Assembly (NCBI RefSeq): GCF_001625215.2
Contig: NC_030386.2
Coordinates: 39,774,796 to 39,838,795 of the forward strand
DNA length: 64,000 bases
Reading direction: 5' to 3'
Source of the DNA: Daucus carota subsp. sativus
Taxonomy: Eukaryota > Streptophyta > Magnoliopsida > Apiales > Apiaceae
The notes under the pieces are model-generated. The model ran no database searches, had not been told where the DNA came from, and saw only the letters and a list, made by a program, of their open reading frames with translations. This document shows, in pieces, positions 43,385 to 62,906 of the stretch (position 1 is the stretch's first letter; each line of letters begins with the position of its first letter). Made by a program: the position numbers and the translations under genes.

Positions 43385-43457
43385 GATCGCGTGGCCTAAT
43401 GGATAAGGCGCTCGCCTCCGGAGCGGGAGATTGTGGGTTCGAGTCCCATCGTGATCG
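43385..43457 (+). tRNA. tRNA-Arg (anticodon CCG)
   Basis: A 73-nt cloverleaf without intron. The acceptor stem is GATCGCG paired with CGTGATC (one G-T pair), then discriminator G. D arm: GGCCTAATGGATAAGGC. Anticodon stem CTCGC/GCGGG around the loop CTCCGGA gives anticodon CCG, which reads CGG. The T arm is GTGGG-TTCGAGT-CCCAT. CCA is not encoded, as expected for a nuclear gene. A TTTT run at 43460-43463 is a likely Pol III terminator. Confidence 0.95.
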
Positions 43458-47232: not shown

Positions 47233-50035
47233 CTAAAGTTTGCTTGTGGGAACCCCGACAGGTGCAGCTCTTGAACGTTTCTCCACTGTGCGGGAAAGCT
47301 GCTTCACTGCCTCTTTTGGTAAAGGGCGGGGCCTGCTCAGCCAGAGTCCACCATCAACTACAAGAGTGGTGCCATTGACGTATTTACCTTCACCAAATAT
47401 GAAAGACACAAAAATTATATGATGAATAAATATTAAGTGCATAAATAAGCAAGGAAGAAGGAACATGGTGCAGGGAAGTGAATATTCCACACAAGTGAGT
47501 GTGTGTTGTCTTGCCTCCTCCCATGACCGTTCCCTCAATAGTGTAAGGATAAACTTGAGGTATTGCTAAAATCAAACGAGACCTTTAAATGAAATGATAT
47601 TTTGAAGGCACTATGATACATAGGGTAGCCAGAGGCGATAGTATATAGAGTTATGTATATATATGACTGTCGCCGGCAACTGTTTTAGTGGCTTTCTAGG
47701 CAAACATGGAAGACTGAGCTGATATAACTCAGTAAAAGAACATACAGCTGATCCAAATAAGTGTAATATGTACCAAAAGAAATTGATTACAGATTAGAAT
47801 TATTAATAGTAATAGTAGACATACTTTTATATGATTAAGAATGGACATTATCAGATGAGCACGGAATGAAGTTAAAACTTAACTACGAAAACAGCAAAAT
47901 GTTTAACAAAATCAGGAGGCTTAAATACAGGAAATTTGGGAAGAAATCCATACAAGGCTCGTCAGGAGAAAGTTATCATTCTTTAATATTTAATAATATA
48001 AACAACATCCCCCACTCCTGAAACTTATAAAAATTGATATATTATAACAAACTCAGTTGGTTGGCGCTCACATAAATTCAGGCTTTGTATATGATCCATA
48101 GAAAACAGATGAAGGACTGCAAATTGAATTAAAAAGGAAAGAAAAAAAATGATCAGTTTACTAACCAGCTTCTGATGTAAGGTAGAGTGCTGCAACAGCT
48201 ATATCCCACTTCTCTCCAAGTTTATATAGAGGCATCTCTTTTCTAGAGCTGTTTTTTATTTCATCAGGTCCCAGTTTACTCATACCAGCAGTGTCACCAA
48301 TGGGGCCAGGAGCAATTCCATTTACTCTGATATCATAATCAGTTCCCCATTCTAAAGCCAAATTTCTCGTAAGAGCATCCACAGCTGCCTGAATTAATCA
48401 TTTATTTTAATATATCATGCAGATGGTAAATAGGTAAACATTATTACTGCAACTAGTACAAACCTTGGCAGCGGATACATGGATTTGATAAAAAGATGCT
48501 GTGTAATGTAAAGTAGCACTGATATTCAATATGCTTCCACCACTTGATGATGTCCTGCCTGGAGCTCCTTTTTTAAGATATTTAAGAGCTTCGCGACACA
48601 TGGTGAAGGTACCAACTGAATCAATATCCATCACTGTAGAAGGAAGGTATCATAAAAACATTAGCTTTCCGCTTAGTCTAAGCCCCCTCTTTTACCTCCA
48701 GTTATACTTTAATGATCTATACAGCGATTAGCTGACAACTTACATGAACCAGCTACCTCTTGCTAAAAATGCATAGTTAATACAATTAATTTAAGACAGT
48801 ACATCTAAGCACTGAAAGAAAAAATCACAAGACAACTGTAGTTCTTACTTATTGAATTTTGATGAATATAACTATAAGCCAGAGTATCAGACAATATGTT
48901 AGAGCGTATCTTCAGAACTGCACCAGACAGCAGATATTACCTGTTCGGAATCCATTAGGAGACAAATCCTCAGCTGACACCAGAAAATTGCCAGCTGCTG
49001 CATTAACAAGAATATCAAGCTTTCCGAAGTGCTTTATAGTTGATTCCACAACTTTTTTTGCATCTTCCTGTTTGCGAACATCACCCTCAAATCCAACAGC
49101 CTATGAAAAAGGAGCAACAAAACATAGGGAACTATTAGAAGAAAAGCCTTTAAAAAAGAAGAAGCCACAATGGACTTTCAGATCAAAGTAACCAATAATC
49201 AAGCCCCACATATTTTTTTGTCTAAAACTAAAGCAAACAAAGATAGGCTCTATGCAAATTCTTACAGTCATAATCTCTGATCAATCATCATGTATATATA
49301 AGAACCATCATTCTTATCATTTCTATATAGCTCAATACAATCCCCAAAAAGAGAGACAAAATAAGCCATTTCCGGTATAGGGATAATGTTACTCCAAAAT
49401 TAATCCAACTCAAACAACAACAACATCAGACACGAATCATTGAAAAATTATTACACTACATTAACTCTACAAAAATAATACTACATCACCACGATCCTTC
49501 ACCACATTACATTAACTCTACAAAAGTTGGAACAATTCCATTCAATTTCTTATAAACCTGAAAAAACCAGTCACTCTAACGAGGCAGTCCCATTATAACA
49601 ACCCATCCACAATAACACAACATACAATCACCGCATATAAACAATCATACCCAAAAGCATACAAAAATTCAGTCTCTACTGATTCTTCCATCTCAGTCAA
49701 ACCTCATGATCACAAAATTTTATTAATCTACATCATAACCGAGAAAAAAAATATTACTTAATCAAAATTAAAACACAATATTGGGACTTAAAAAATATTA
49801 CTTCATCGAGATTAAAAACAAAAAAATATTACTTTATCGAGATCACTACCTGAATCCCAAGTGATCGAAGAGAGGCAACAGCAGAATCAAGAACAGACTT
49901 GCGGCGACCCATGATAGCAACACAAGCTCCATGTTGACCGAACTGGCTGGATATTTCGTACCCAATACCCGACCCGCCTCCAGTCAACAGGGCTACCTTG
50001 CCATTAAGAATGTTTGGTTTAAATGGGCTCTCCAT
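47233..50035 (-). CDS. Peroxisomal 2,4-dienoyl-CoA reductase-like SDR, 5 exons
   Basis: 297-aa short-chain dehydrogenase/reductase, minus strand. Exons: 50035-49850, 49100-48941, 48633-48464, 48388-48166 and 47387-47233; all phases join. The enzyme should use NADPH to reduce 2,4-dienoyl-CoA during beta-oxidation of unsaturated fatty acids. The cofactor motif is TGGGSGIG near residue 20. LDILVNAAAGNF and LNISATLHYTASFYQIHVSAAK mark the active-site region. The C-terminus is SKL, a canonical peroxisomal targeting signal. Length matches Arabidopsis SDRB/DECR. I start at MESPFKPN (50035), where the known family begins; an in-frame ATG at 50065 would add 10 residues. A TATA-like ATATAAATA lies at 50146-50154 on the minus strand. 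The gene looks intact. Confidence 0.94.
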
Positions 50036-50561: not shown

Positions 50562-50847
50562 TAGTACTTAAATATTATTAAAAAATGTGTTTTTTTGTCA
50601 TAATGTGTTTTGACTTTTAAGAACTAGTAATTATTATGTTCTCATAAAATAAATAAATAATTATTTTGTGAATTTTAAATAGCAAATATAAGCGCTCTTT
50701 GGGGTTTACTATAAAATAATAATTTTTAAATTAGATAAATAAATTAAAATTCACTAAATGGATTTATTCTCTTAAAAAAAACTGTCTTTCTTTTATTAAA
50801 TATTTTCTCTTCTAAAAATATATTTTAAAATAGTTTAATTCAAAAAA

Positions 50848-51400
50848 GAGTTAATTATCAATTAGATCACTTATTACGCTAGAAAATATCAAGTGGGTCA
50901 CTGGGAAATTTTTAGTCTCATTTGAATCACTAAAAACATAAAAAATATCAAATAGATACCTTTAATATCTTTTCGAGGAATAAACTTTATTTTGCATGGA
51001 GTTTCACACATTTTTCTTAGGTGTTAGTATAATCAAATGAAAGGTTATAAATTCTAGTATTTAAGATAATATATTCAGATTTTAAGAAATTTATTTACTA
51101 TTTATTTTTAATTTTACAATTACTTTGTTTAATTATATCAAATGAATAATAAATAAATTTTTTAAAATCTGAATATATTATCGTAAATACAAGAATTCAT
51201 AACCTTTCATTTGATTATACTAACAGCTAAAAAAAATGTGTGAAACTCAATAAAAAATAAAGTTTACTCCTCGAAAAGATATTAGAGGTATCTATTTGAT
51301 ATTTTTTTATGACTTTAGTGATTCAAATGAGACCAAAAATTTCTCAGTGACCCACTTGATATTTTCTAGCGTAATAAGTGACCTATTTGATAATTAACTC
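50848..51400. mobile_element. MULE-type foldback MITE with ~270-bp arms (553 bp)
   Basis: Almost the whole element is one long inverted repeat: the left arm from GAGTTAATTATCAATTAG pairs with the right arm ending in GATAATTAACTC at roughly 90% identity. It has a perfect 10-bp target duplication ATTCAAAAAA at 50838-50847 and 51401-51410. A 9-11-bp duplication with long arms beginning GAG fits non-autonomous Mutator-like elements. No transposase. The transcript would fold into a long hairpin. Confidence 0.8.
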
Positions 51401-51754
51401 ATTCAAAAAATATATCTGAAAAAATCAACACAAAAGATAACTTAATCATTTTTGTAATTTTATATTGTGAACTTATTATTTATTATCTTTTTTATAGAAA
51501 TGATTGATATCACTTTTCATTTGAAAAGAAATCCAGATAATTAATTTCATATGACTTCTAAAAACTAGTAAAATATTAATAAATTATAAACTTTTAAAGA
51601 TCAATAAAAGAAAATTTTGGAAATCTCAACTTTTCTTATTCAACTTATAGCAAAGACCAACAACACAAACAATAGTCCAATACCAACGATTCTACATGGG
51701 CCTGGCGAACAGCAATATGTTGTCACTTGATCCCATGACCCTCACAGTAATATA

Positions 51755-52003
51755 CTCCCTCCGTCCCCCTGAGTTATATACATTGGGGACGGGATGCGGC
51801 ACGGACTTTAATACTCCTGTAAAGTATAGTTCTATAACTTATTTTTAAGATTTTTCTTTTCTGAATAAAAGTTTGAATGTTATATTTTTATTCAGAAAAA
51901 GAAAATTTTAAAAATAACTTATAGAACTATATTTTATAAGAGCATTGAAATGCGTGTCGAGCAGTGAAAAAGAAACGTATAGAATTAAATGGGACAGAGG
52001 GAG
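51755..52003. mobile_element. Stowaway-like MITE (249 bp)
   Basis: Ends CTCCCTCCGTCCCCCT and AATGGGACAGAGGGAG, TA on both sides (51753-51754 and 52004-52005). The inside continues as foldback around GTATAGTTCTATAACTTATT and its inverse AATAACTTATAGAACTATA. Confidence 0.85.
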
Positions 52004-52079: not shown

Positions 52080-52395
52080 AACATACAAACTTAAACAACA
52101 TCAACCATATCAATGCTAGAAAACTAGACAGAGGAAACTGCTCCAGGTCCAGCTGCTGCACAATTTCCATATGCTGAGGTTGAGCTTGAGCTTCTTGGTA
52201 TGCGGGTTGGTGCTGTGATGTGGATTCCGAAAGAGGAGAATAGAGCGGAGTTGTGGATACCCGAAGAGGAGGCTGCATGTAGAAACTGGTACTGAAATTT
52301 TGGCGGTAGCTACAGCATCAGGTGTGTTAGGTGGGTTATTGCCGGTTTGATCTGCACTCTCTGCACTATTCTGTTGTTTACTCTCCGTAATCAAA
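52080..52395 (-). pseudogene. NF-YC-like gene fragment, N-terminal part (block 1, left arm)
   Basis: Minus-strand match to the N-terminus and 5' flank of the intact NF-YC-like gene. Recognisable pieces are ADQTGNNPPNTPD (intact gene: ADQEGNNPPPLPD) and, in another frame, AYQEAQAQPQHMEIVQQ (intact: VYQEIQAQAQHMENVRE). The frame is disturbed and there is no histone fold. It is the left arm of an inverted pair centred near 52650. Confidence 0.7.
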
Positions 52396-53035
52396 GTTCA
52401 CAAGTATTCAATCTTTACAAGTGAGTCTCCTTGTTGCCTGTCATTCCATAAATCAATCAGTAATCATATCAATCACTACATTACTCTGCAAGGATGATGG
52501 AGACCAACAAATTATTTAATTGAAGAACTCACCAAACTTGTGAATGATCCAAGATGAGATGTATTTCTTAAATAGAGTTTTTTTCAATACGTGTTAATTT
52601 AGAATTATCACCACACTATATACTGAAGACACCTAGTTTGGGCATGCAAAAACACATCTACATGTCTTCTGTATATGGTGCGGTGACAATTATAATTGAA
52701 CACGTATAAAAAATAATAATTTAAGAAACGCATCTCATTTTTAAATCATTCACAAGTTGGGTGAACTCTTCAATCAAATATTTGTTGGTCTTCATGGTCC
52801 TTGAAGAGTAATTTACTGATTGATATGATTACCGATTGATTTACAGAATGGACAGCCAACAAGGAGACACACTAGAGTTTTAAGAATTGAAACTTGTAAC
52901 CTTTGATTATGGAGAGTCAACAACTACATTGCAGAGGGTACAGATCAAACCGGCAATAACCAACGCGACATACCTGATGTTGTAGCTACCAGCAACGTTT
53001 CAGTACCAGTGTATACAATAATGCAGCCTCCTCTT
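52255..53035. repeat. Large inverted repeat IR-N1, centre near 52650
   Basis: Left arm about 52255-52640, right arm about 52660-53035. TTGTTGCCTGTCATTCCATA on the left corresponds to the inverse of the segment near 52840-52870, and TGTGAATGATCC pairs with AAATCATTCACAAG. Both arms hold the N-terminal region and 5' flank of the NF-YC-like gene, head to head. Arms are diverged but clearly paired over ~370 bp. Confidence 0.75.
52905..53035 (+). pseudogene. NF-YC-like gene fragment, N-terminal part (block 1, right arm)
   Basis: Plus-strand mirror of 52255-52395. It opens ATGGAGAGTCAACAACTAC (Met-Glu-Ser-Gln-Gln), equivalent to the start of the intact gene, but the frame soon ends. It leads into CAGCCTCCTCTTCC, seen in the other N-terminal fragments. 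Confidence 0.6.
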
Positions 53036-53339
53036 CCCCAGGGATAGGCAGTTTTGCAAGTCCACCTGAAAGTGCAATAGCTTTGTTATCATTAATTGCC
53101 AGTTTCAGCAGATTTAGATGCGTGGCAAAGAGCTAATTGAATAAAAAAAGAAAGTAATATAGGCAAACATAACGGGTGAATGAGATGCATTAAACAAAAG
53201 AAACGATAAAAATAAAAGAAAATAGAGATTAAAAGTACTACCATATACAAGTGTTCTAATCAAGAAAGAAAAAATTTATCCACCACAATTGAACACAATC
53301 TATGTAGAAAGGAGTTGGAACCAACAATCTAATCAGTTT
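53036..53339. repeat. NF-YC-cluster leader-like repeat, copy 1
   Basis: Contains GGGATAGGCAGTT, TGCAAGTCCA, ATACAAGTGTT and CACAATTGAACACAATCTAT in this order. Related copies lie at about 54550-54830 and 60880-61100. No protein frame is seen. It may derive from a leader or intron of a family member. Confidence 0.6.
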
Positions 53340-53902
53340 TCCTCTAGCTCCTCGTTGCTCGGCTGGTCGGGTTGTTGCTCAGCTTGAGGCCAGTACTGCT
53401 ACATTGGGCTCTGCTGGTACTGATCTGTAGCCATGGCTGATACTGAGGCATAAATGGATGAGGTTGCTGATCACCAACACGGCAACACTTGTTATACTCG
53501 ACACTCGTATTCCATGCTGTTGATCAGGAACATTGTAGCAATAAATTCAGGACCAGCAGATGAGCTCGCCTGTGGTCCATTGTTTGTGGCCCCTAGAATT
53601 TGTTCAATCGATTCATCTCTTGGAATCCCGTGTTCAAGAATATCAAATGTATCTGTTTTAAAAATTTGTCACAGCAATATCTTTCTTTTGAACATTTCTT
53701 CTTCCATCTTTCTCATTGTTGATCCAGGCTTGTGAAGTCGTATCAAGGATAAACATCTCGCAAGTCTTAGCAAAGACAGCTACAGTTTCCTGGACAATCA
53801 TCCTGATATCATTATCCGCTCTCATTATCCTTTTAACCGGAGCAAGTGGGAGCTTGTGCTTCTTGAGGTCTGCTGGCGTCATTTCATGCATTTGGTTAGC
53901 CC
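53340..53902 (-). pseudogene. NF-YC-like fragment with histone fold (block 1)
   Basis: Minus-strand copy of the central part of the NF-YC-like gene. An open stretch (53891-53658) reads MTPADLKKHKLPLAPVKRIM and on through FAKTCEMFILDTTSQAW, the NF-YC histone fold. After a frame change, FKTDTFDILEHGIPRDE and ASSSAG can be followed, then Q-rich remnants with stops. No start context or N-terminus is attached. It is the left arm of an inverted pair. Confidence 0.75.
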
Positions 53903-54175
53903 GAGATTGCCTCCATGTGCGATTTTGGGCTAACCAGATGCTAGAATGACTCCAGCAGACCTCAAAGAATCAAAGGCTCCCATTTGCCCCAATTAAAAGG
54001 ATAATGAAAGCAGATAATGATATCAGGATGATCGCCCAGGAAACTGTAACCGTCTTTACTAAGACTTGCGAGATGTTTATCCTTGATATGACATCAAGAG
54101 CCTGGATTAACAATGAGGAAGATGGAAGGAGAACAATTCAAAAGAAGAAATTGTTGCAATAAAACAGATACCTTT
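53645..54175. repeat. Large inverted repeat IR-H1, centre near 53914
   Basis: Left arm 53645-53902 and right arm about 53927-54175, separated by only ~24 bp. Arms are about 88% identical by eye across the histone-fold sequence; for example GGTCTGCTGGCGTCATTTCA faces TGACTCCAGCAGACC. A transcript across it would form a hairpin of about 250 bp. Confidence 0.85.
53927..54175 (+). pseudogene. NF-YC-like histone-fold fragment (block 1, plus strand)
   Basis: Plus-strand mirror of the preceding fragment. In one frame it reads FAPIKRIMKADNDIRMIAQE and FTKTCEMFILDMTSRAWIN. A stop lies just upstream in the segment matching ANQMLE, and the frame ends soon after the fold, so no working NF-YC can be made. 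Confidence 0.75.
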
Positions 54176-54549
54176 GATTTTCTCAAACACGTAATGCCAA
54201 AATATATATTGAGCGAACAAATTCTCAAAGCCACAAGCAATGGACAACAGGCCTGAGACCATGGCGCCTCTCGTGCCTTTGCAACTTATCAGTTACAGAG
54301 GCTGAACAGCCACCAAGAAAACAGGGACAGGATTTGAAATGAAAACTTTTTCATACAATATTTCTTCTATGTTTGATAATCTGATAAATTTCCTTCATTT
54401 CTGATTTCAACTTGTGAAAATAATTCTAAATAAATCAATATCTTGCTACTACCTCCGTCTCAAATTACAAAGCCTAGTCAGATCTCGTGAAATCTTCTCC
54501 GACAGTACTAAAAAGTAAAGATGGAGTCTTGAGTCCAACAAATCTTTCC

Positions 54550-55310
54550 TCCGCCCTAGGGATAGGCAGTTCTGCAAGTCCAACTGAAAGTTCAATGGGC
54601 TTGTTATCAATACAATTATCAACAAATTTAATATAAAAATGGTAAATTAGGCAAATATAAAGGCTGAATGAAATGCATCAAACAATACACATAACAAAAT
54701 GAAAAAAAAAAGAAGAAAGAGAATGATAGTATTACCTTATACAAGTGTTCGAATTAATGTGAAAAAACTGAATCGGCCACAATTAAACGAAATCTATGTA
54801 GTAAAAAACTGTAATGAACATATATATTTTGATTGAAGAGATAACGGAAACCGTAACAATCAAGGTAAAATGGAAGAGCTAATAGAAACTATAACCAACA
54901 GTGTTTTGATAGAAGAGCTAATAGAAACTATGGATGACGTAGAGATGCTACCGAAGAACCAGAGATGAGATGAGTTTCGCAGAGATGAGATGAGTTTCTT
55001 AAATAAAAGATATACCAGATTTGAGATGACACGTATTACATACAAATAAAAACGTATGCAATATATGAATGACACGTATTTTTCCCATGCAAAAACGGAC
55101 AAAAATATACGTGTCCTAGATTAATTACATAATGACATTTTAGCTTAGCGTAACACGGTTCACAGAATTTTCGAAATTATTAAAAATAAAAAAAATTAAA
55201 TATGCATATTCTTGTATTGCTAGTTTGCTACATTAGAAATGACTTAATGACAACACAAGCTGAAGTTTCAACTAGATGCAAGTTACACCACTACACCACG
55301 CCAGCACAGA
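54550..55310. repeat. NF-YC-cluster flank repeat (block 1)
   Basis: Closely similar to about 60880-61560. Long shared blocks include GATGACACGTATTACATACA, AAACGTATGCAATATATGAA and TGACATTTTAGCTTAGCG. On the minus strand this corresponds to the 5' side of a family member. It places block 1 and block 2 as copies of one ancestral arrangement. Confidence 0.8.
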
Positions 55311-55312
55311 GT

Positions 55313-55560
55313 AACAATTATGACCTTCATTTAACTACGACTCTAAGAAACAAATTAAAATTACATTAATAACTTGCAGACTTGGAAAAAGCATTCTACA
55401 ATCACAGTTTCCATCAAGCTCTCTACTTCCATGCCAAACAATTATGACCTTCATTTAACTACGACTCTAAGAAACAAATTAAAATTACATTAATAACTTG
55501 CAGACTTGGAAAAAGCATTCTACAATCACAGTTTCCATCAAGCTCTCTACTTCCATGCCA
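55313..55560. repeat. Tandem 124-bp duplication
   Basis: Two adjacent, essentially identical 124-bp copies at 55313-55436 and 55437-55560, each starting AACAATTATGACCTTCATTT and ending CTACTTCCATGCCA. A single diverged version stands beside the intact NF-YC-like gene's stop codon near 61575-61670. Confidence 0.9.
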
Positions 55561-55640
55561 AGTAGATTTATTAAATCCTTGCTGCTGCTGATTCTGATGG
55601 TCCTGTTGCTGCTCAGCTTGAGGCGATGACTGCTCTAAGT
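55561..55640 (-). pseudogene. NF-YC-like gene fragment, last codons only
   Basis: Minus-strand match to the last ~20 codons and stop region of the intact NF-YC-like gene (shared CAGCTTGAGGCGATGACTGC and GGTCCTGTTGCTGCTCAGCTT). Homology stops abruptly at about 55640, where the UGT gene's 3' flank begins. It marks a breakpoint. Confidence 0.8.
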
Positions 55641-55740
55641 TATGTTAGAATATAAAATTAAATTTTTTTATTTATTATTATATGGAATACATGATAAACT
55701 TAATCACTCACAATATAATTATTCATATAAACTCCCCGAA

Positions 55741-57072
55741 CTAGATATTACAAAGCTGAAGCAATTCTTCCACCACGATATCTACATATTTGTCCCCACT
55801 CTCCCTCCGGCTCTTGCTCAAATCTTTCGTCTTCCGTCTTATTTCATCCCCATCCTTGTGCACCACAACTTTCTTTATAACTTCTGCAATATCGCTTCCC
55901 CGGAATCTCCCATTCCCATCTCTCTTAACCTCCGCGCCCAACCCAGCCTCGTTCACCACTCTAGCATTCAGCGGCTGATCATACTGCATTGGCATTGCAA
56001 TGATCGGAACGCCGTAGGCTAATGCCTCCGTCACCGAACCCCGTCCACAATGACTCACGAATCCCCCGATGCTTGGATGCGCTAATATCCTGGTCTGCGG
56101 TGCCCATGTCTCTAAAATAATTCCCTTTTCTCCAATTCTTTCGCGAAATATTTTAAGAAAATCACCGATAAAATCTCTGTCGGGACACTTAACAACCCAT
56201 ATAAAATTCACACCGCTCAGCTCGAGTCCAGAAGCCATCTCCTCCACCTCTTCCTTCGACAAGTGACACTCGGTCCCCATCGAAACAAACAACGTTGATG
56301 CCTCATCTTTTTTGTCAAGCCACTCGAAAATCTCGCAATCATCATCTTGTTTCCAATCAACAGTCTCAGAAACAAGTAGACCAACTGGGAGAACTTTTTT
56401 CCTACACAGAGTAGAAAAATAGTCAATATACTTTCCCTCAATCTCATCACAGCTCTTGACTAAAATCAGTTTTGATTCCCTGACGCAAGAGCTGACACGC
56501 TCAGCCGTCCCGATGCCATGAGCATGCACTTTCATCAATTTCTCAAACTTGGCCTTTTCATAGTCCGTGACATATATTTCCGGATAAGGAAACGGAGAGT
56601 GGCGCCCATTAATCTCAAAATGAGTCCAGTAACACGTCGTCACGGCGCCATTTGTGATGTACGAGACCGTTGGAACATTCTGGGACAGAGCCACTTGCGG
56701 CGCCCAATGTTGGAAAATATCGTTTATAAGCAAATCTGGTTTTAATGTTCGAATGATATCCGACAAGTTCGGGGCTGCCATGTCAAAGGCTTTTCTCAGA
56801 GTGGAGAGGAGGTTTGGTGGGAGGCCATTTACTGTGTGGTAATGAGGAGGAAGTTCTGGCAAATTGGGAAGATGGATCTCGATTGTTTTTATTGAAGGGC
56901 TGTTTAGAAGGGCTTTTTTGACTGAGGCTAGATTCACTGGGGTTGAACATAGATGAACAGAAACACCTCTTTTGGTGAGTCTTTTGCCGAGCTCTAGGTA
57001 AGATGATACATGGCTGTAGCCTAGCCATGGTAGCATCAGAACCGTTATGCCTCTCCCTTTGCTTTCCGCCAT
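55741..57072 (-). CDS. UDP-glycosyltransferase, UGT94-like (sugar-chain extending)
   Basis: Single-exon gene, 443 aa, minus strand. Family-1 UGTs move a sugar from UDP-sugar to small molecules in the cytosol. STPVNLASVKKAL, LPELPPHYHTVNGLPP and PIIAMPMQYDQPLNARVV resemble UGT94 members, which add a sugar to an existing glycoside (flavonoid, crocetin, lignan types). The actual substrate is unknown. His21 (YSH) and Asp118 (IND) fit the catalytic pair. The PSPG box spans residues 323-366 (WAPQ to DQ); its last Gln favours UDP-glucose, though this is no proof. The near-invariant Trp at box position 22 is Arg344 here (HCGRGS), and position 23 is Gly. Length is normal (about 450) and there are no breaks. 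TATA sequence at 57121-57129. It sits between two NF-YC debris blocks. Confidence 0.9.
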   Translation of the reverse strand: MAESKGRGITVLMLPWLGYSHVSSYLELGKRLTKRGVSVHLCSTPVNLASVKKALLNSPSIKTIEIHLPNLPELPPHYHTVNGLPPNLLSTLRKAFDMAAPNLSDIIRTLKPDLLINDIFQHWAPQVALSQNVPTVSYITNGAVTTCYWTHFEINGRHSPFPYPEIYVTDYEKAKFEKLMKVHAHGIGTAERVSSCVRESKLILVKSCDEIEGKYIDYFSTLCRKKVLPVGLLVSETVDWKQDDDCEIFEWLDKKDEASTLFVSMGTECHLSKEEVEEMASGLELSGVNFIWVVKCPDRDFIGDFLKIFRERIGEKGIILETWAPQTRILAHPSIGGFVSHCGRGSVTEALAYGVPIIAMPMQYDQPLNARVVNEAGLGAEVKRDGNGRFRGSDIAEVIKKVVVHKDGDEIRRKTKDLSKSRRESGDKYVDIVVEELLQLCNI

Positions 57073-57120
57073 CTCTCTCTGGATATTTAGATATGAGAGA
57101 TCTCATGTTCACACGGCTCG

Positions 57121-57129
57121 TTTTTATAG
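57121..57129 (-). promoter_or_regulatory. Probable TATA box of the UGT gene
   Basis: Minus strand CTATAAAAA, about 50 bp upstream of the ATG at 57072. This implies a very short leader. Confidence 0.55.
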
Positions 57130-57897
57130 AGCTTCATGCGGACGGCTATAATAGAAAATACTAGAAAACATAATACATCACTCTAATTATATGTTAAATA
57201 TTTTATTAAAATATATAATAACTAAAAAAATTAAAAAAGGAGGAAAATAAATAAAGTTAAAAAAGTGAACAATTTTCATACCCATAAATATTAGTAGTTA
57301 CTCTCTCTGTTTTTTTTATTTGACACTTTGATTTTGGACTAAGTGTTTTGACCGGGTATTTAAAAATAATATTTTCTGAATAAAAATATATAACCAAATA
57401 GATTATTTTTAAAAGATGAAAACGCTTAGGCAACAACTCTGAAATATAAAATACTTTTCATGTGTTATTAATTTCATGCGTTTTTAGTTATTATCATATT
57501 TATTTTTATTTTGATACTTACATTAAAAACCCACTAGAAAATATTTTTATTTTTGAAAATTATACCCTTATTTTTCAAAATCATAAAAGAAAATTTTACA
57601 TACCCAAATGGCCAAATTATTATACACTGACATAATTAAAAACATTATTTTAAGATCATGGACATCTGCTCTTGAGTCTTGAGGCTTCATCCATATGTAC
57701 ATTTCACTAATATTACTCCATGCACATGCCACCGGCCCACAGCTATTAAAACACGACTATATGCACATGCCGCCGGCCCCATGAACTCATATAGAGATGA
57801 CATGTTCCATTTATAACGGAGCTTACATCTGTGGATGATAACATGACACACATGCAGATCATATTCGATCATATTACTTACAAGGTTACACCATGAT
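57130..57897. other. UGT upstream region with a partial Stowaway-like end
   Basis: AT-rich flank. Near 57301, CTCTCTCTGTTTTTTTTATTTG looks like a decayed Stowaway end without a clear partner. A short motif, CATGCACATGCC(A/G)CCGGCCC, occurs twice near 57718 and 57761. No gene recognised. Confidence 0.4.
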
Positions 57898-58022
57898 TTT
57901 CTGGCTGAGGTTGGATTGACTGGTTGTTGAACGTAGATATATACTCAAAGACCTCTTGTTGCGCAGGTAAGATGATACATGGCTACGTTATATATGCCTC
58001 TCCCTTTCATGATCTCTCTCTA
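57898..58022 (-). pseudogene. Degenerate fragment of the UGT 5' end
   Basis: Minus-strand remnant matching the start of the UGT gene. AGGTAAGATGATACATGGCT and ATGCCTCTCCCTTT occur in both places (near 56995 and 57052 in the UGT), with CATCTCTCT or TGATCTCTCT at the presumed start codon. Only about 40 codons can be followed, with gaps. It shows that a second UGT copy once stood upstream. Confidence 0.7.
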
Positions 58023-58769
58023 TTCCTTACCGCTGTTTGATTGTCATTTTCAACACCATTTTTCCATTAAGGCTCTGTTTAAAGGTGTTAATCACAAACA
58101 TCCCTTTTTCTTCTATATATCCCATGCATCTAATAAGATGCAGTTTCTTTTCATTTCAGAAGAATCCCTCCTCTTACATTCTAATAATTTGCAAACACCT
58201 TTTTTAAATATTGAAAAGATTAAACCCGTAGATCAAATTACTTCTTCATGCCATACTGAGATATTTTCCCTTTCATCTACTAGCGCTTCTTATTCACTTT
58301 TTTCACCATGAATTTTCAAAAATTTTTGATATTGAGAATGGGGCTAGAATTAGCATCTTAATGACGAGAATAGAATTTTTGGAGTATCTTATTGTTTACT
58401 GAGATAGAATTAGTGTGTTTTAAGAAAATAATTATTTTATTCTTAATAAGTAAAAAAGACAAACACCAAGGTATACTATCAAATATTAATTTGGAAGTAG
58501 ATAAACTTGAAATTCACAAAATAGATATATATGTATATTTTTTCTAAAAGAAATAAATATATATAACTTAATAAATATATGATAAAATCTGTTATTGTTA
58601 ATTTATTATTTATCATCTTTCTTTGTTAAAAGATGTAATTTAATTATTATTTTTCTCTTGAAAAAAATAATAATCAATTTATGGTTTTGAATAAAAACGA
58701 TAATTAATCTAATGTGATATGTTGAGTGAATTATCAAATATTAATTTGTAAATAATATAGATGCAGGAA
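58023..58769. other. Intergenic DNA, nothing recognised
   Basis: AT-rich, mostly without structure. A short plus-strand frame overlaps the UGT remnant and has no family character. Confidence 0.45.
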
Positions 58770-59190
58770 ACTACACCAGAGTCTGCAGGTCCAGCTGCTG
58801 CTAAGCCTGTGGCCAAGGTATAAACGACTTGCTGATTATGCAGTGACTAAGCCTGAGGCGCATGCATAAAGAATTCTGTGGTCTTGGCATATGTACAAGT
58901 TATGCTGGGATAAAGCCTAAGCACTGGCATAAAAGATTGCAGAATCTGGCCTACATAAATGGTACTGTAGTTGTTGGGAACGAGCTTGAGGTGCAGAAAG
59001 AAAAGATTGTTGGCACTGTTGCCTGACATAAATGACTGCTATGCTCAAGATCACCTAAGTCGTCTTGCACAGTCTCCATATGCTCGAGCTTCTTGGTATG
59101 CGGGTTGCTGTGATAGTGTGATGTGATGTGGACTCGGAAAGTGGAGAATAGAGCGGAGGTCGGACCCCGGAAGAGGAGGCTCATTCCTAA
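58770..59190 (-). pseudogene. NF-YC-like fragment lacking the histone fold (block 2, minus)
   Basis: Minus-strand remnant where N-terminal sequence (PAYQEA-like segment near 59090) runs directly into Q-rich C-terminal sequence (near 58980-58770), with the histone-fold part missing. Frames are broken. The mirror copy at 59340-59720 has the same joint, so the internal loss came before the inverted duplication. Confidence 0.65.
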
Positions 59191-59217
59191 TAGTTAACAT
59201 GTATTGGAAAAATATTC

Positions 59218-59295
59218 AATTTAAGAAACACATTTCATTTCTAGATCATTCACAAATTTGTGAATGATCTAGAAATGAAATGTGTTTCTTAAATT
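59218..59295. repeat. Perfect 78-bp palindrome with tandem 37-bp units
   Basis: The sequence reads the same on both strands over 78 bp, with no loop (centre 59256/59257, ACAAATTTGT). A 37-bp unit beginning AAATTTGTGAATGATCTAG is repeated head to tail at 59254-59290 and 59291-59327. As a result a 48-bp left arm (59211-59258) also pairs perfectly with 59292-59339. It is the centre of the N-terminal inverted pair of block 2. Confidence 0.95.
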
Positions 59296-59339
59296 TGTGA
59301 ATGATCTAGAAATGAAATGTGTTTCTTAAATTGAATATT

Positions 59340-59720
59340 TGTCCAATAGATGTTAAATTTTGAAATGCAGCCTCCTCCTCCAGTATCCACAACTCCGCTC
59401 TATTCTCCTCTTTCGGAATCCACATCACAGCACCAACCCACATACCAAGAAGCTCAAGCTCAGCATATGGAGATTGTGTGAGAACGAAGCGATCTTGGGC
59501 CTTAGGCTCACTCCCAGCACAACCAACAGCTATCATTTATGTCCAGCAACAGATCCAGCTCGCAATCTTTTTTGCCTGCACCTCAAGCTCATTCCCAACA
59601 ACTCCCATTTATGTCATGGCCTCAGATTCTGCAATCTCTTATGCCGGTGCCTCAGGCTTAGTCACTGCATAACCAGCAGCAGCCTCAGTCACTGCATAAC
59701 CAGTAAGCCGTTTATACCAT
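59340..59720 (+). pseudogene. NF-YC-like fragment lacking the histone fold (block 2, plus)
   Basis: Plus-strand mirror of 58770-59190. It reads MQPPPPVSTTPLYSPLSEST and HQPTYQEAQAQHMEIV, then a stop, then Q/P-rich pieces such as PAPQAHSQQLPFMSWPQ in a neighbouring frame. The histone fold is absent. Confidence 0.7.
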
Positions 59721-60271
59721 CTCTTCTGGTCAAGTTGTTCCTCAGCTTGAGGCGACTGCTGGTCTGGGCTCTGCTGGTACTGAGTCTGAGGAAAAGGCAG
59801 GCATAAAGGGTTTGCTGGATCTTTGGCCATGGCTGATACGAAAGGCATAAATGGACGATCGAGGTTGCTGATCACCAACACTTGTTATACTCAACATTGT
59901 AGCAATAAATTTAGGACCAGCAGATGAGCTCGCCTGCTGTCCATTGTTTGTGGCCCCTAGAATTTGTTTGATTGATTCATCTCTTGGAGTCCGGTATTCA
60001 AGAATATCAAATGTATCTGTTTTAAAATTTTGTCACAGCAATATCTTTCTTTGAACCGTTCTTCTTCCATCATTTTCAGTGTTGACTCAGGCTTGTGAAG
60101 TCATATATATCAAGTATAAACATCTCGCAAGCTTTAGCAAATACAACTACAGTTTCCTGGGCAATCATTCTGATATCATTTTCCGCTCTCATTATCCTTT
60201 TAACCGGAGCAAGTGGGAGCCTGTGCTTCTCTTGAGTTATGTTGGCGTCATTTCATGCATTTGGTAAGCCC
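59721..60271 (-). pseudogene. NF-YC-like fragment with histone fold (block 2, minus)
   Basis: Minus-strand copy corresponding to 53340-53902. It holds the histone-fold region (LAPVKRIMRAENDI can be read), then degenerate Q-rich C-terminal sequence. Broken in several places. It is the left arm of inverted repeat IR-H2. Confidence 0.72.
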
Positions 60272-60545
60272 AAGATGGCCTCCATGTGCGGTTTTGGGCT
60301 AACCAGATGCTAGAATGACTCCAGCAGACCTCAAAGAATCAAAGGCTCCCACTTGCCCCAATTAAAAGGATAATGGAAGCAAATAATGATATCAGGATGA
60401 TCGCCCAGGAAACTGTAACCGTCTTTGCCAAGGCTTGCGAGATGTTTATCCTTGATATGACTTCATAAGCCTGGATTATCACAGAAGAGGACAAAAGAAG
60501 AACTGTTCAGAAAAAAGATATCGTTGAACCAATTTTTAAAACAAT
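60010..60545. repeat. Large inverted repeat IR-H2, centre near 60283
   Basis: Arms about 60010-60271 and 60296-60545 around a ~24-bp spacer. It has the same design as IR-H1 and a nearly identical centre (CCTCCATGTGCG.TTTTGGGCT), so the two are copies of one inverted repeat, about 6.4 kb apart. Confidence 0.85.
60296..60545 (+). pseudogene. NF-YC-like histone-fold fragment (block 2, plus)
   Basis: Plus-strand mirror copy. One frame reads LAPIKRIMEANNDIRMIAQE and continues to FAKACEMFILDM, after which a stop follows. It keeps the AKACEMFI stretch of the intact gene better than the block 1 copy does. Confidence 0.72.
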
Positions 60546-60879
60546 CTTCTTCTATTTGATAATTTGATATATTTCCTTCATTTCTGATTTCAACCTGTGG
60601 AAATAATGCTAAATAAATAAATATTTTGCTACTACCTATGTTTCAAAATTATTTTAGTTTTGAAAATAAGTTAATTATAGAACTATGTGAACCTTATAAA
60701 ATTCAAAAAATTGAAGAATGGATATAGGAACCTTGTAAAATGCTGGGACTGAGCCTGAAGCACGGGCATAAAGAATTGCTTAAGAAAGAACTGATATTAC
60801 CGAAATGCGAAAGCAGATAAACACTGAACCAGCCACAAGTTTCCTGGTATTCTAGCTTGCCGATTCCTGAGAGTTGAAG

Positions 60880-61560
60880 AATTGCAGTCGATAAGTCTTA
60901 TCCAAGAGGCCGGGAGTCGAAGAATTTAATATATAACAAGGTAAATTAGGCAATAAAAAGGCCGAATGAAATACATCAAACAACATATATAATAAAAGGT
61001 AAAAAAAAAGAAGAGAACGATAGTATTACCTTATACAAGTGTTTGAATTCATGTAGAAAAACTCAATCTGCAACAATTGAACACAATCTATATAGAAAAA
61101 ACAGTAACATACAGATGTTTTGATTGAAAAGATAATAGGAACTGCCACTATTTGAAACAATCGAGGTAGAAAGGAATTATAACGAACAAATGTTTTGATT
61201 GAAGAGCTAATAGAAACTATGGATGAAGCAGAGATGTTATGGATGAACGAGAGATGAGATGAGTTTCTTAAATAGAAGAAATACCGAAAACGCGTTAGAT
61301 TTGAGATGACACGTATTACATACAAATAAAAACGTATGCAATATATGAATGACACGTATTCTTCGCATGCAAAAACTTACAAAAACATACGTCTTTTAAA
61401 TTTATTATATATTGACATTTTAGCTTAGCGCAACACGGTTTCCACGAAATTTCCGAAACTATTAAAAATCAAAAAAAAAATGCATAATCTTGTATTGCTG
61501 CATTAGAAACGACTAAATGGCAACACAAACTGAAGTTTCATTTACTTAACTTATTGATGC
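60880..61560. repeat. NF-YC-cluster flank repeat (block 2)
   Basis: Counterpart of 54550-55310, with long near-identical blocks. It lies between the block 2 inverted repeat and the stop codon of the intact NF-YC-like gene. Minus-strand frames across it (61026-61355) are Ile/Ser-rich and hydrophobic, recur in diverged form in block 1, and are unlikely to be coding. Confidence 0.8.
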
Positions 61561-61688
61561 ACCACTACACCACACCAAAGTAACGATTATGACCCTCATT
61601 TAAATATGATTCTAAGAAACAAATTAAAATTACATTAATAACTTGTAGACTTAAAAAAACAAGTAGATTTAGTAAATCCTTGCTGCTG

Positions 61689-62906
61689 CTAATTCTGCTG
61701 GTCCTGTTGCTGCTCAGCTTGAAGCGATGACTGCTCTAAATTTTGCTGTTCCGGACTCTGCTCAGGTAGAATACAAGATGCAGGAAAGTGCTGCGAGGTA
61801 TGCTGGTCAGTAGTCTGTTCAGCCTGAGTAGAAGATATAAGAGGCTGCTCCGGGGTCTGCTGGTCCAGAAGCTGCTGAGATTGTGGCCAGGAAATTAATG
61901 ACAGATGCTGTTCCGGGATCTGCTGAGTCTGTGGCCAGGGAAATAACGACGGCTGCTGGTCCTGATGGTGCTGAGTTTGTGGGCAGGGAATAAATGAGAG
62001 ATGCTGCTCCGGGATCTGCTGAATCTGTGGCCAGGGCTGGTACAGATGCTGCTGGGCTTGTGGCCAGGGAATAATTGGCAGATGCTGCTCTGGGGTCTGC
62101 TGAGTCTGTGGCCAGGGAATAATCGGGGTTTGCTGGTACAGATGCTGCTGAGCTTGTGGCCAGGGAATAATTGGCAGATGCTGCTCCGGGATCTGATGAC
62201 CCTGTGGCCAGGGAATGAACGGCGTCTCCTGGTTTTGCTGGGACTGAGGCACAGAGAGAAACGACTGCGGGATCTGTGGTACTGGCCGAAACAAAGGGAC
62301 AAACGGCGGGGGTTGCTGAACAACAGCTCTTGTCACACTCGATGCATTGTTGCCATGACTTCCACTATCAGTAGATGAACTTGCCCCTTGTCTCGCATTT
62401 TTGGCTTTGAGAATTCTTTTCTTCACTTCATCTCTTGGAATTATGTTGTCAAGAAAATCAAACATATTTGTTTTAAGAACTGCTTCAACGATATCATTTT
62501 TCTGGACAGTCCTTCTCTTGTCCTCTTCCGTGACAATCCAGGCTTGTGATGTCATATCAACTATGAACATCTCACAAGCTTTAGCAAATAATGGTAAAGC
62601 TTCCTGCGCGATCATCCTAATGTCGTTATCAGCTTTCATTATGCGCTTAATTGGAGCAAGCGGGAGGCTGTGCTTCTTGAGGTCTGCACGTGTCAATTCT
62701 TGCATCTGGTTAGCCCAAGATCGCCTCAGTTGTTCTCGCACGTTCTCCATATGCTGGGCTTGTGCTTGAATTTCTTGGTACACGGGCAGTACTGATACTA
62801 GAACGCTGTTGGAAGCTACAACATCTGTTGTGTCAGGAAGGGGAGGGGGATTATTGCCTTCTTGATCTGCATCCTGATCAGCAATGTATTGTTGGTGACT
62901 ATCCAT
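61689..62906 (-). CDS. NF-YC-like histone-fold protein with PWPQ-repeat tail
   Basis: Single-exon gene, 405 aa from ATG 62906 (MDSHQQ), minus strand. NF-YC pairs with NF-YB in the nucleus; with NF-YA or CCT-domain proteins the dimer binds CCAAT-type promoters. A spacer with AQAQHMENVREQLRRSW precedes the fold, as in plant NF-YCs. The histone fold (about residues 75-162) has IMKADNDIRMI, LFAKACEMFIVDM, RRTVQKNDIVEAV and FDFLDNIIPRDE. In the first helix the usual LARIKK is LAPIKR: Pro85 replaces a near-invariant Arg. The tail is Q/P-rich with about eight 16-residue units built on PWPQ (about residues 232-365), far from normal NF-YC tails. At 405 aa it is longer than typical (about 200-260). The gene is open throughout. 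Function is uncertain, since Pro85 may weaken DNA or partner contact. Confidence 0.85.
   Translation of the reverse strand: MDSHQQYIADQDADQEGNNPPPLPDTTDVVASNSVLVSVLPVYQEIQAQAQHMENVREQLRRSWANQMQELTRADLKKHSLPLAPIKRIMKADNDIRMIAQEALPLFAKACEMFIVDMTSQAWIVTEEDKRRTVQKNDIVEAVLKTNMFDFLDNIIPRDEVKKRILKAKNARQGASSSTDSGSHGNNASSVTRAVVQQPPPFVPLFRPVPQIPQSFLSVPQSQQNQETPFIPWPQGHQIPEQHLPIIPWPQAQQHLYQQTPIIPWPQTQQTPEQHLPIIPWPQAQQHLYQPWPQIQQIPEQHLSFIPCPQTQHHQDQQPSLFPWPQTQQIPEQHLSLISWPQSQQLLDQQTPEQPLISSTQAEQTTDQHTSQHFPASCILPEQSPEQQNLEQSSLQAEQQQDQQN
61830..62215 (-). repeat. Coding minisatellite, ~48-bp units (PWPQ repeat)
   Basis: In-frame repeat in the NF-YC-like gene. Units alternate between PWPQ-xQQ-xPEQHL-xxI and PWPQ-AQQ-HLYQ-type forms. 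On the plus strand the recurring core is TGTGGCCAGGGAAT. The alternation of two unit types suggests growth by duplication of a ~96-bp double unit. Confidence 0.85.

Follow-up and report, generated by a model that had tools for sequence, protein, structure and literature searches.

Gene-derived palindromes accompany a tandem array of NF-YC-like genes in carrot

The NF-YC-like gene and its palindromes

We analyzed a 64,000-nt stretch of the carrot genome (Daucus carota subsp. sativus, C6:39774796-39838795; referred to here as the window) that contains an intact NF-YC-like gene, designated gA, beside inverted repeats of NF-YC-like sequence, and we searched the genome (441 Mb, 11 contigs) for relatives of these features. 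A first-pass annotation had described gA as being accompanied by at least nine of its own fragments, arranged as two N-terminal and two histone-fold inverted pairs in a repeated order. The gene, at least nine NF-YC-derived pieces around it, and the four pairs were all recovered at the places given, and the palindromes, taken in that order, showed identities of 79, 81, 73, and 78% (Table 1). gA has an open frame and carries the NF-YC histone fold, with a PF00808 domain that scored 66 bits (cut-off, 21.4). Among solved structures, it matched best (E = 1.7e-31) a chain of plant type named “Nuclear transcription factor Y subunit C-2.”

The palindromes belong to two repeat units, W1 and W2 (units 1 and 2). 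The 5′ palindrome of unit 1 is formed by two head-to-head NF-YC-like 5′ regions (upstream sequence, leader, and first codons). The histone-fold palindromes consist of an arm that is sense (arm S) and an arm that is antisense (arm A) to the gene strand; the halves are 81% identical in W1 (53568-54252) and 78% identical in W2 (60018-60543), and arm S of W1 holds an open reading frame (ORF) of 77 aa (53658-53891). These gene-derived inverted repeats are able to form long hairpins, with predicted energies of -437 and -291.5 kcal/mol for the window hairpins. RNA folding z scores were -38.8 and -27.2 for the histone-fold pairs of W1 (20 shuffles) and W2 (100 shuffles) and -38.4 and -30.0 for the N-terminal pairs of units 1 and 2 (20 shuffles each). 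For none of the four window palindromes did a shuffled sequence fold as well. The hairpin-forming capacity proposed by the annotation is real.

When a palindrome was defined by an aligned length of at least 300 nt, an identity of at least 70%, and a spacer of <100, none was found in positions 1 to 50000 of the window or in five 10-kb stretches (5 of 40 drawn at random). Two were found in three 10-kb stretches around other NF-YC genes, and the gA protein had no match inside either one. By the same definition, the 63 kb of C6 starting at window position 50001 contained 13 palindromes and 80 kb of C8 contained 10; part of these resemble miniature inverted-repeat transposable elements (MITEs).

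Table 1. Coordinates of features of units 1 and 2 (window numbering)
Feature	Position	Strand	Remarks
N-terminal/upstream palindrome, unit 1	52263..53036	.	Self-inverted match, 79.4%; center, 52649
Histone-fold palindrome, unit 1, arm S	53568..53913	-	PF00808, 50.7 bits
Histone-fold palindrome, unit 1, arm A	53919..54252	+	One-base loss near junction
3′ flank and last C-terminal codons (55591-55644) of lost gene copy	54625..55644	-	
UDP-glycosyltransferase-like gene at place of unit 1's expected gene	55741..57072	-	PF00201, 72.4 bits
N-terminal/upstream palindrome, unit 2	58899..59673	.	Near-perfect center; 73.3%; center, 59286
Histone-fold palindrome, unit 2, arm S	60018..60282	-	Insertions break reading frame
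Histone-fold palindrome, unit 2, arm A	60288..60543	+	Outer part of C6_3-6 type (recombinant)
Flank, histone-fold palindrome to gene	60533..61660	.	Common to C6 units, partly to C8 copies
Intact NF-YC-like gene gA	61689..62906	-	Open frame, 405 aa; PF00808; solved-structure match

The glycosyltransferase-like gene was not covered by any block among the C6 self matches of at least 500 bp. The flank of unit 1 contains a perfect 124-bp direct duplication (55313-55560), and the C terminus of gA (61811-62308) carries in-phase repeats with spacings of 48, 48, 48, 81, and 96 nt and is rich in Pro, Trp, and Gln (PWPQ...). A transfer RNA (tRNA) gene at 43385-43457 (Rfam RF00005, 61.7 bits) was the only Rfam match in the window at gathering thresholds; no member of a known plant MIRNA family was found there. 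Two further palindromes lie at lower coordinates than unit 1. One, 559 bp long with halves 90% identical (50845-51403), belongs to a dispersed, high-copy MITE-like family; it gave 1240 first-look candidates, of which the best 40 were scored, and also occurs in the C8 gene spacers. The other (51797-51959; 163 bp) has ends like CTCCCTCCGTCCC and is presumably a Stowaway-type MITE.

Repetition of the unit on C6 and C8

The annotation had placed the locus at 52080-62906. The array at these positions is real, but it reaches far beyond the window, to six units on C6 and a further array on C8. The six tandem C6 units (those after W1 and W2 are termed C6_3 to C6_6) follow one plan: first a 5′ palindrome, next a histone-fold palindrome, and then, across a ~1-kb flank, an NF-YC-like gene. 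In unit 1 the gene is lost, with only its last codons left next to the glycosyltransferase gene, and unit 6 has a gene remnant. In window numbering, the 5′ palindromes are centered at 52649, 59286, 66568, 72973, 79893, and 87981 and the histone-fold palindromes near 53916, 60285, 67781, 74042, 81000, and 94425, so that the former precede the latter by 1.0 to 1.3 kb in units 1 to 5 and by 6.4 kb in unit 6.

With the first histone-fold palindrome as the query, eight such palindromes were found genome-wide, six on C6 and two on C8. Among the best-scored candidates, to which the genome-wide palindrome matches refer, all 32 reported matches of the 5′ palindrome lay within the two arrays, and the 53 reported matches of the histone-fold core were all confined to the arrays and three further NF-YC-like sites (C6:29.16, C5:8.13, and C4:43.37 Mb). 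The C8 array comprises two histone-fold palindromes, ordered and oriented relative to the gene as on C6, and at least 11 gene copies without the N terminus, a count that is a lower bound because the C8 stretch includes 2500 N. Near the C8 palindromes, the 5′ region is a single arm and not a palindrome. C8 copies (L014-L019, C8:2935938-2981589; 5 of 11 translated) have a new N-terminal stretch, MRPRCLKSFD... or close to it, joined near an LKKH motif. Upstream DNA is common to all 11, and the Gln-rich C-terminal tail matches in another frame in 10 of the 11, as it does in one C6 gene, gC. Misassembly as the source of the palindromes was rejected, because diverged copies occupy eight places on two contigs. 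We consider the structure well established and its repetition unusual.

The C6 genes differ in length (345 to 410 aa; gB, 379 aa; gC, 345 aa; gD, 410 aa), and the tail of gC is in another frame from approximately residue 280. The open frame of gA is under purifying selection. The ratio of nonsynonymous to synonymous substitution rates (dN/dS) in the fold was 0.11 to 0.14 in five of six C6 gene pairs (the sixth, gB-gC, gave 0.37, on five changes only), and gA compared with the other three genes gave 0.11 to 0.12, with 4 to 8 synonymous sites differing. The corresponding ratio of proportions (pN/pS) was 0.13 and 0.15 in the two C6 gene pairs tested, indicating constraint.

Origin of the arms and tests for conserved pairing

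The eight S arms agree in their MHEM start region and in one additional base close to where the fold ends, the eight A arms agree in lacking one base near the junction, and the central junction is recognizably alike in all eight palindromes. In view of this shared junction and these arm-specific insertions and deletions, a single origin of the histone-fold palindrome, predating the multiplication of the units, is most likely. The arms had been taken for fragments of gA itself. They are NF-YC derived, but the 8 of 16 histone-fold arms that were compared with gA differ from it at 21 to 28 of ~40 synonymous sites (dS, 0.9 to 1.9), versus the 4 to 8 seen between gA and the other three C6 genes, and the arms are ~73 to 82% identical to the gene. 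This synonymous divergence makes the arms look like descendants of an NF-YC-like lineage that predates today's gene arrays, not of the present gene. The two arms of a locus (seven loci) differ at 10 to 16 of ~40 synonymous and 16 to 22 of 146 to 158 nonsynonymous sites. Arm divergence seems to be largely protein-like, and recent changes are nearly neutral (the pN/pS of 0.63 did not differ from 1; P = 0.16). Either the two copies already differed when they were joined, or the arms later received tracts of working genes. Exchange between arms, units, and genes is in part seen directly, in that arm A of W2 changes type along its length and is recombinant and the arms of C6_3 to C6_6 carry gene-like letters. 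CpG depletion, a possible footprint of methylation, gave no clear indication: observed/expected ratios were 0.35 to 0.57 in the eight palindromes, 0.65 to 0.95 in the folds of the four C6 genes, and 0.33 to 0.36 in three C8 copies.

The tests of whether pairing has been preserved by selection were mostly negative or mixed and gave no clear sign of it. An arm matched its own partner slightly better than a random partner (81.2% versus 79.7%, P = 0.010), but the advantage disappeared when the other partner was drawn from the same group of units (81.1%, P = 0.31). Counting wobble pairs gave within-group P values of 0.47 and 0.58 for the two strands, and the lowest over nine settings was 0.083 (inner coding part, gene strand). 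No wobble bias was detected among distinct arm differences (40 wobble type versus 36 mismatch type, P = 0.73). Over six pairs of units, the palindrome was better conserved than the flank in three, worse conserved in two, and equal in one. In W2-C6_3 and W2-C6_5, the palindrome was 79 to 91% identical and the flank mostly 90 to 99%; in C6_3-C6_4, the values were 94 to 98% and 94 to 100%, respectively. This patchwork fits block exchange between units, although the three better-conserved pairs would also suit constraint.

We favor, with modest confidence, the explanation that the locus is a recombination-amplified NF-YC-like gene array that carries old pseudogene palindromes as passengers. The repeat unit would carry two old palindromes, of the 5′ region and of the histone fold, both from an earlier NF-YC-like paralog. 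The latter would stem from a single fold-back event that joined gene copies; unequal recombination would then have multiplied the unit to six on C6 and partly copied it to C8, with tracts exchanged between arms, units, and genes. The palindromes themselves would mostly be passengers. If they are transcribed, the hairpins could be cut by Dicer-like enzymes, and occasional small interfering RNAs (siRNAs) against NF-YC-like copies are plausible. We prefer the passenger explanation because the units keep one order, the junction and its insertions and deletions are common to the palindromes, pairing shows no gain within groups and no wobble bias, the W2 palindrome falls behind its flank in conservation when compared with C6_3 and C6_5, recent arm changes are approximately neutral, and arm A of W2 is recombinant.

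Several observations weigh against this explanation. In W1-W2, W1-C8, and W2-C8, the palindrome is mostly 88 to 98% identical, and the well-aligned flank is 73 to 89, 77 to 93, and 82 to 95% identical, respectively, with poorly aligned stretches between the well-aligned ones. Changes at the same position in both arms, tested between groups of units with codon position allowed for, exceeded expectation in W1+C8 (6 of 160 versus 2.2 expected, P = 0.006), C8 (7 of 188, P = 0.018), and W1 (10 of 191, P = 0.012); the value for W2 was 4 of 191 (P = 0.19), and the four comparisons overlap. At the four coordinated positions common to W1 and C8, the letter of the genes stands in both arms of units 3 and 5 (the two units of the C6_3-6 type compared, together with selected genes). 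Such changes can be accounted for without function by conversion, either between arms or from genes; selection for pairing could produce them too. In five loci, comparison of one arm with the other gave a pN/pS of 0.27 to 0.41 (Fisher P, 7e-5 to 0.03); the arms were therefore more than dead copies of a single sequence. Strong folding is retained by all eight histone-fold palindromes. Finally, trees gathered neither the S arms, the A arms, nor all arms as a clade, and none of these clades was rejected when rooting was done against other NF-YC genes (approximately unbiased test, P = 0.38, 0.23, and 0.39, respectively).

Silencing potential and related systems

A possible but doubtful alternative is that the palindromes are working hairpin silencers, with siRNAs from the histone-fold palindromes limiting the NF-YC-like genes and siRNAs from the 5′ palindromes aimed at upstream regions and leaders, like those of poplar FERR-R. 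The hairpins are very strong, and one lies 2.4 to 2.5 kb from each of the four C6 genes and 1.6 kb from the unit 6 remnant. The coordinated arm changes, and the three of six unit pairs in which the palindrome is well conserved, would also suit silencers, whereas the lack of a pairing gain within group loci and of a wobble bias argues against them. The siRNA-type matches, tabulated for five of the eight hairpins against four genes (gA, gB, gD, and the C8 copy h5), point both ways. Against silencing of the neighboring intact gene, neither window hairpin has an exact 21-mer to gA; the longest exact match is 19 nt (arm S of W1), and 21-mers with one mismatch number 6 in arm A of W1, 5 in arm S of W2, 4 in arm A of W2, and 0 in arm S of W1. 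In favor, exact matches of 21 to 35 nt link units 3 and 5 to the present copies gA, gB, or h5, with exact 21-mers from C6_3 to h5 and from C6_5 to gA, gB, and h5 (none from W1, W2, or C8_1).

The annotation had also compared the locus with the soybean CHS and Arabidopsis PAI loci, and the comparison is apt: the arms are ~73 to 82% identical to the gene, and the silenced soybean genes CHS7 and CHS8, on which the siRNAs are reported to act, are 81% similar to CHS4 (PMC6710647). In poplar, siRNAs from FERR-R reportedly target the promoter, 5′ untranslated region, and exon 1 for methylation and the parent transcript for cleavage (PMC7674411). Given these precedents, silencing is conceivable here, and an action like that of soybean CHS or poplar RR9 is possible. 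A regulatory role is a hypothesis, and the sequence evidence is leaning toward passengers of a recombining gene array. A more elaborate form, which we regard as improbable, is a self-updating silencer, in which amplified NF-YC-like genes are accompanied by hairpins of their own and conversion between the genes and both arms keeps each hairpin matched to the genes that it limits. If true, the array would have its own brake on gene dosage, or would suppress a rapidly evolving gene family, with a logic like that of Drosophila Dox/Nmy.

It is very unlikely that arm S encodes a histone-fold-only microprotein (77 to 111 aa) that binds NF-YB partners in competition with full NF-YC. ORFs of this length starting with MHEM are present in seven of the eight loci, and that of W1, the one ORF tested, reached 50.7 bits with PF00808, but the recent pN/pS of the S arms was 0.79 (not different from 1, P = 0.47), the ORF is broken in W2, and insertions and deletions vary its end between loci. 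We rejected the idea that the palindromes are MITEs that captured NF-YC pieces, since, although MITE-like palindromes occur nearby (50845-51403) and in the C8 spacers, the NF-YC palindromes, among the best-scored candidates, match the arrays or other NF-YC-like places and are not dispersed, whereas the element at 50845-51403 is found on many contigs.

Natural inverted repeats of genes have founded plant silencing loci several times, affecting seed-coat color, sex determination, and methylation variants, and inverted gene repeats are one proposed source of new microRNA (miRNA) genes. If the carrot palindromes are inert, strong hairpins can persist as passengers, which cautions against calling hairpins regulatory from sequence alone. 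NF-YC genes of angiosperms are reported to have expanded by tandem duplication, among other routes (PMC12936444). Neither “inverted” nor “pseudogene” occurs in the main text of that survey, and no NF-YC hairpin array was among the matches listed in literature searches that combined NF-YC with inverted repeats, tandem duplication, pseudogenes, or hairpins or that addressed palindromes and tandem arrays.

By type, the locus belongs with the known gene-derived inverted repeats of plants. Like Populus RR9/ARR17 (FERR-R in P. deltoides), it has truncated gene pieces as inverted repeats and the full gene outside (PMC7465354, PMC7674411). For P. deltoides, siRNAs, methylation, and cleavage are reported; the P. 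trichocarpa arms are described as 90 to 95% identical, versus 73 to 81% in the window palindromes, and the poplar repeats are sex linked, whereas here the units repeat beside genes. The soybean I locus, CHS1-3-4/CHS4-3-1, likewise combines a gene-family inverted repeat, a duplicated region, and nonallelic recombination (PMC6710647), but it has two identical 10.91-kb gene-cluster arms with demonstrated siRNAs, in contrast with the short fragments and near absence of a spacer here. VIM4-VIM2 and PAI4-PAI1 of Arabidopsis Cvi are also palindromes of neighboring gene copies, head to head in VIM4-VIM2 (PMC13213937); they are reported to occur once per locus and in the Cvi accession only, with siRNA and methylation evidence. 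Plant miRNA genes can arise by inverted duplication, in which transposon or pseudogene pieces give hairpins as here (PMC3237417), although the window palindromes have no Rfam match. In Drosophila simulans, the Nmy and Tmy hairpin RNAs are, as here, related in sequence to an amplified gene family, that of Dox (PMC10292708); unlike the plant array described here, this is an animal system in which autosomal hairpins act on X-linked drivers in a genetic conflict. Set beside these systems, carrot offers eight related hairpins of graded divergence next to a gene family in one genome, a setting in which to ask up to what age and down to what identity a hairpin is still processed or active.

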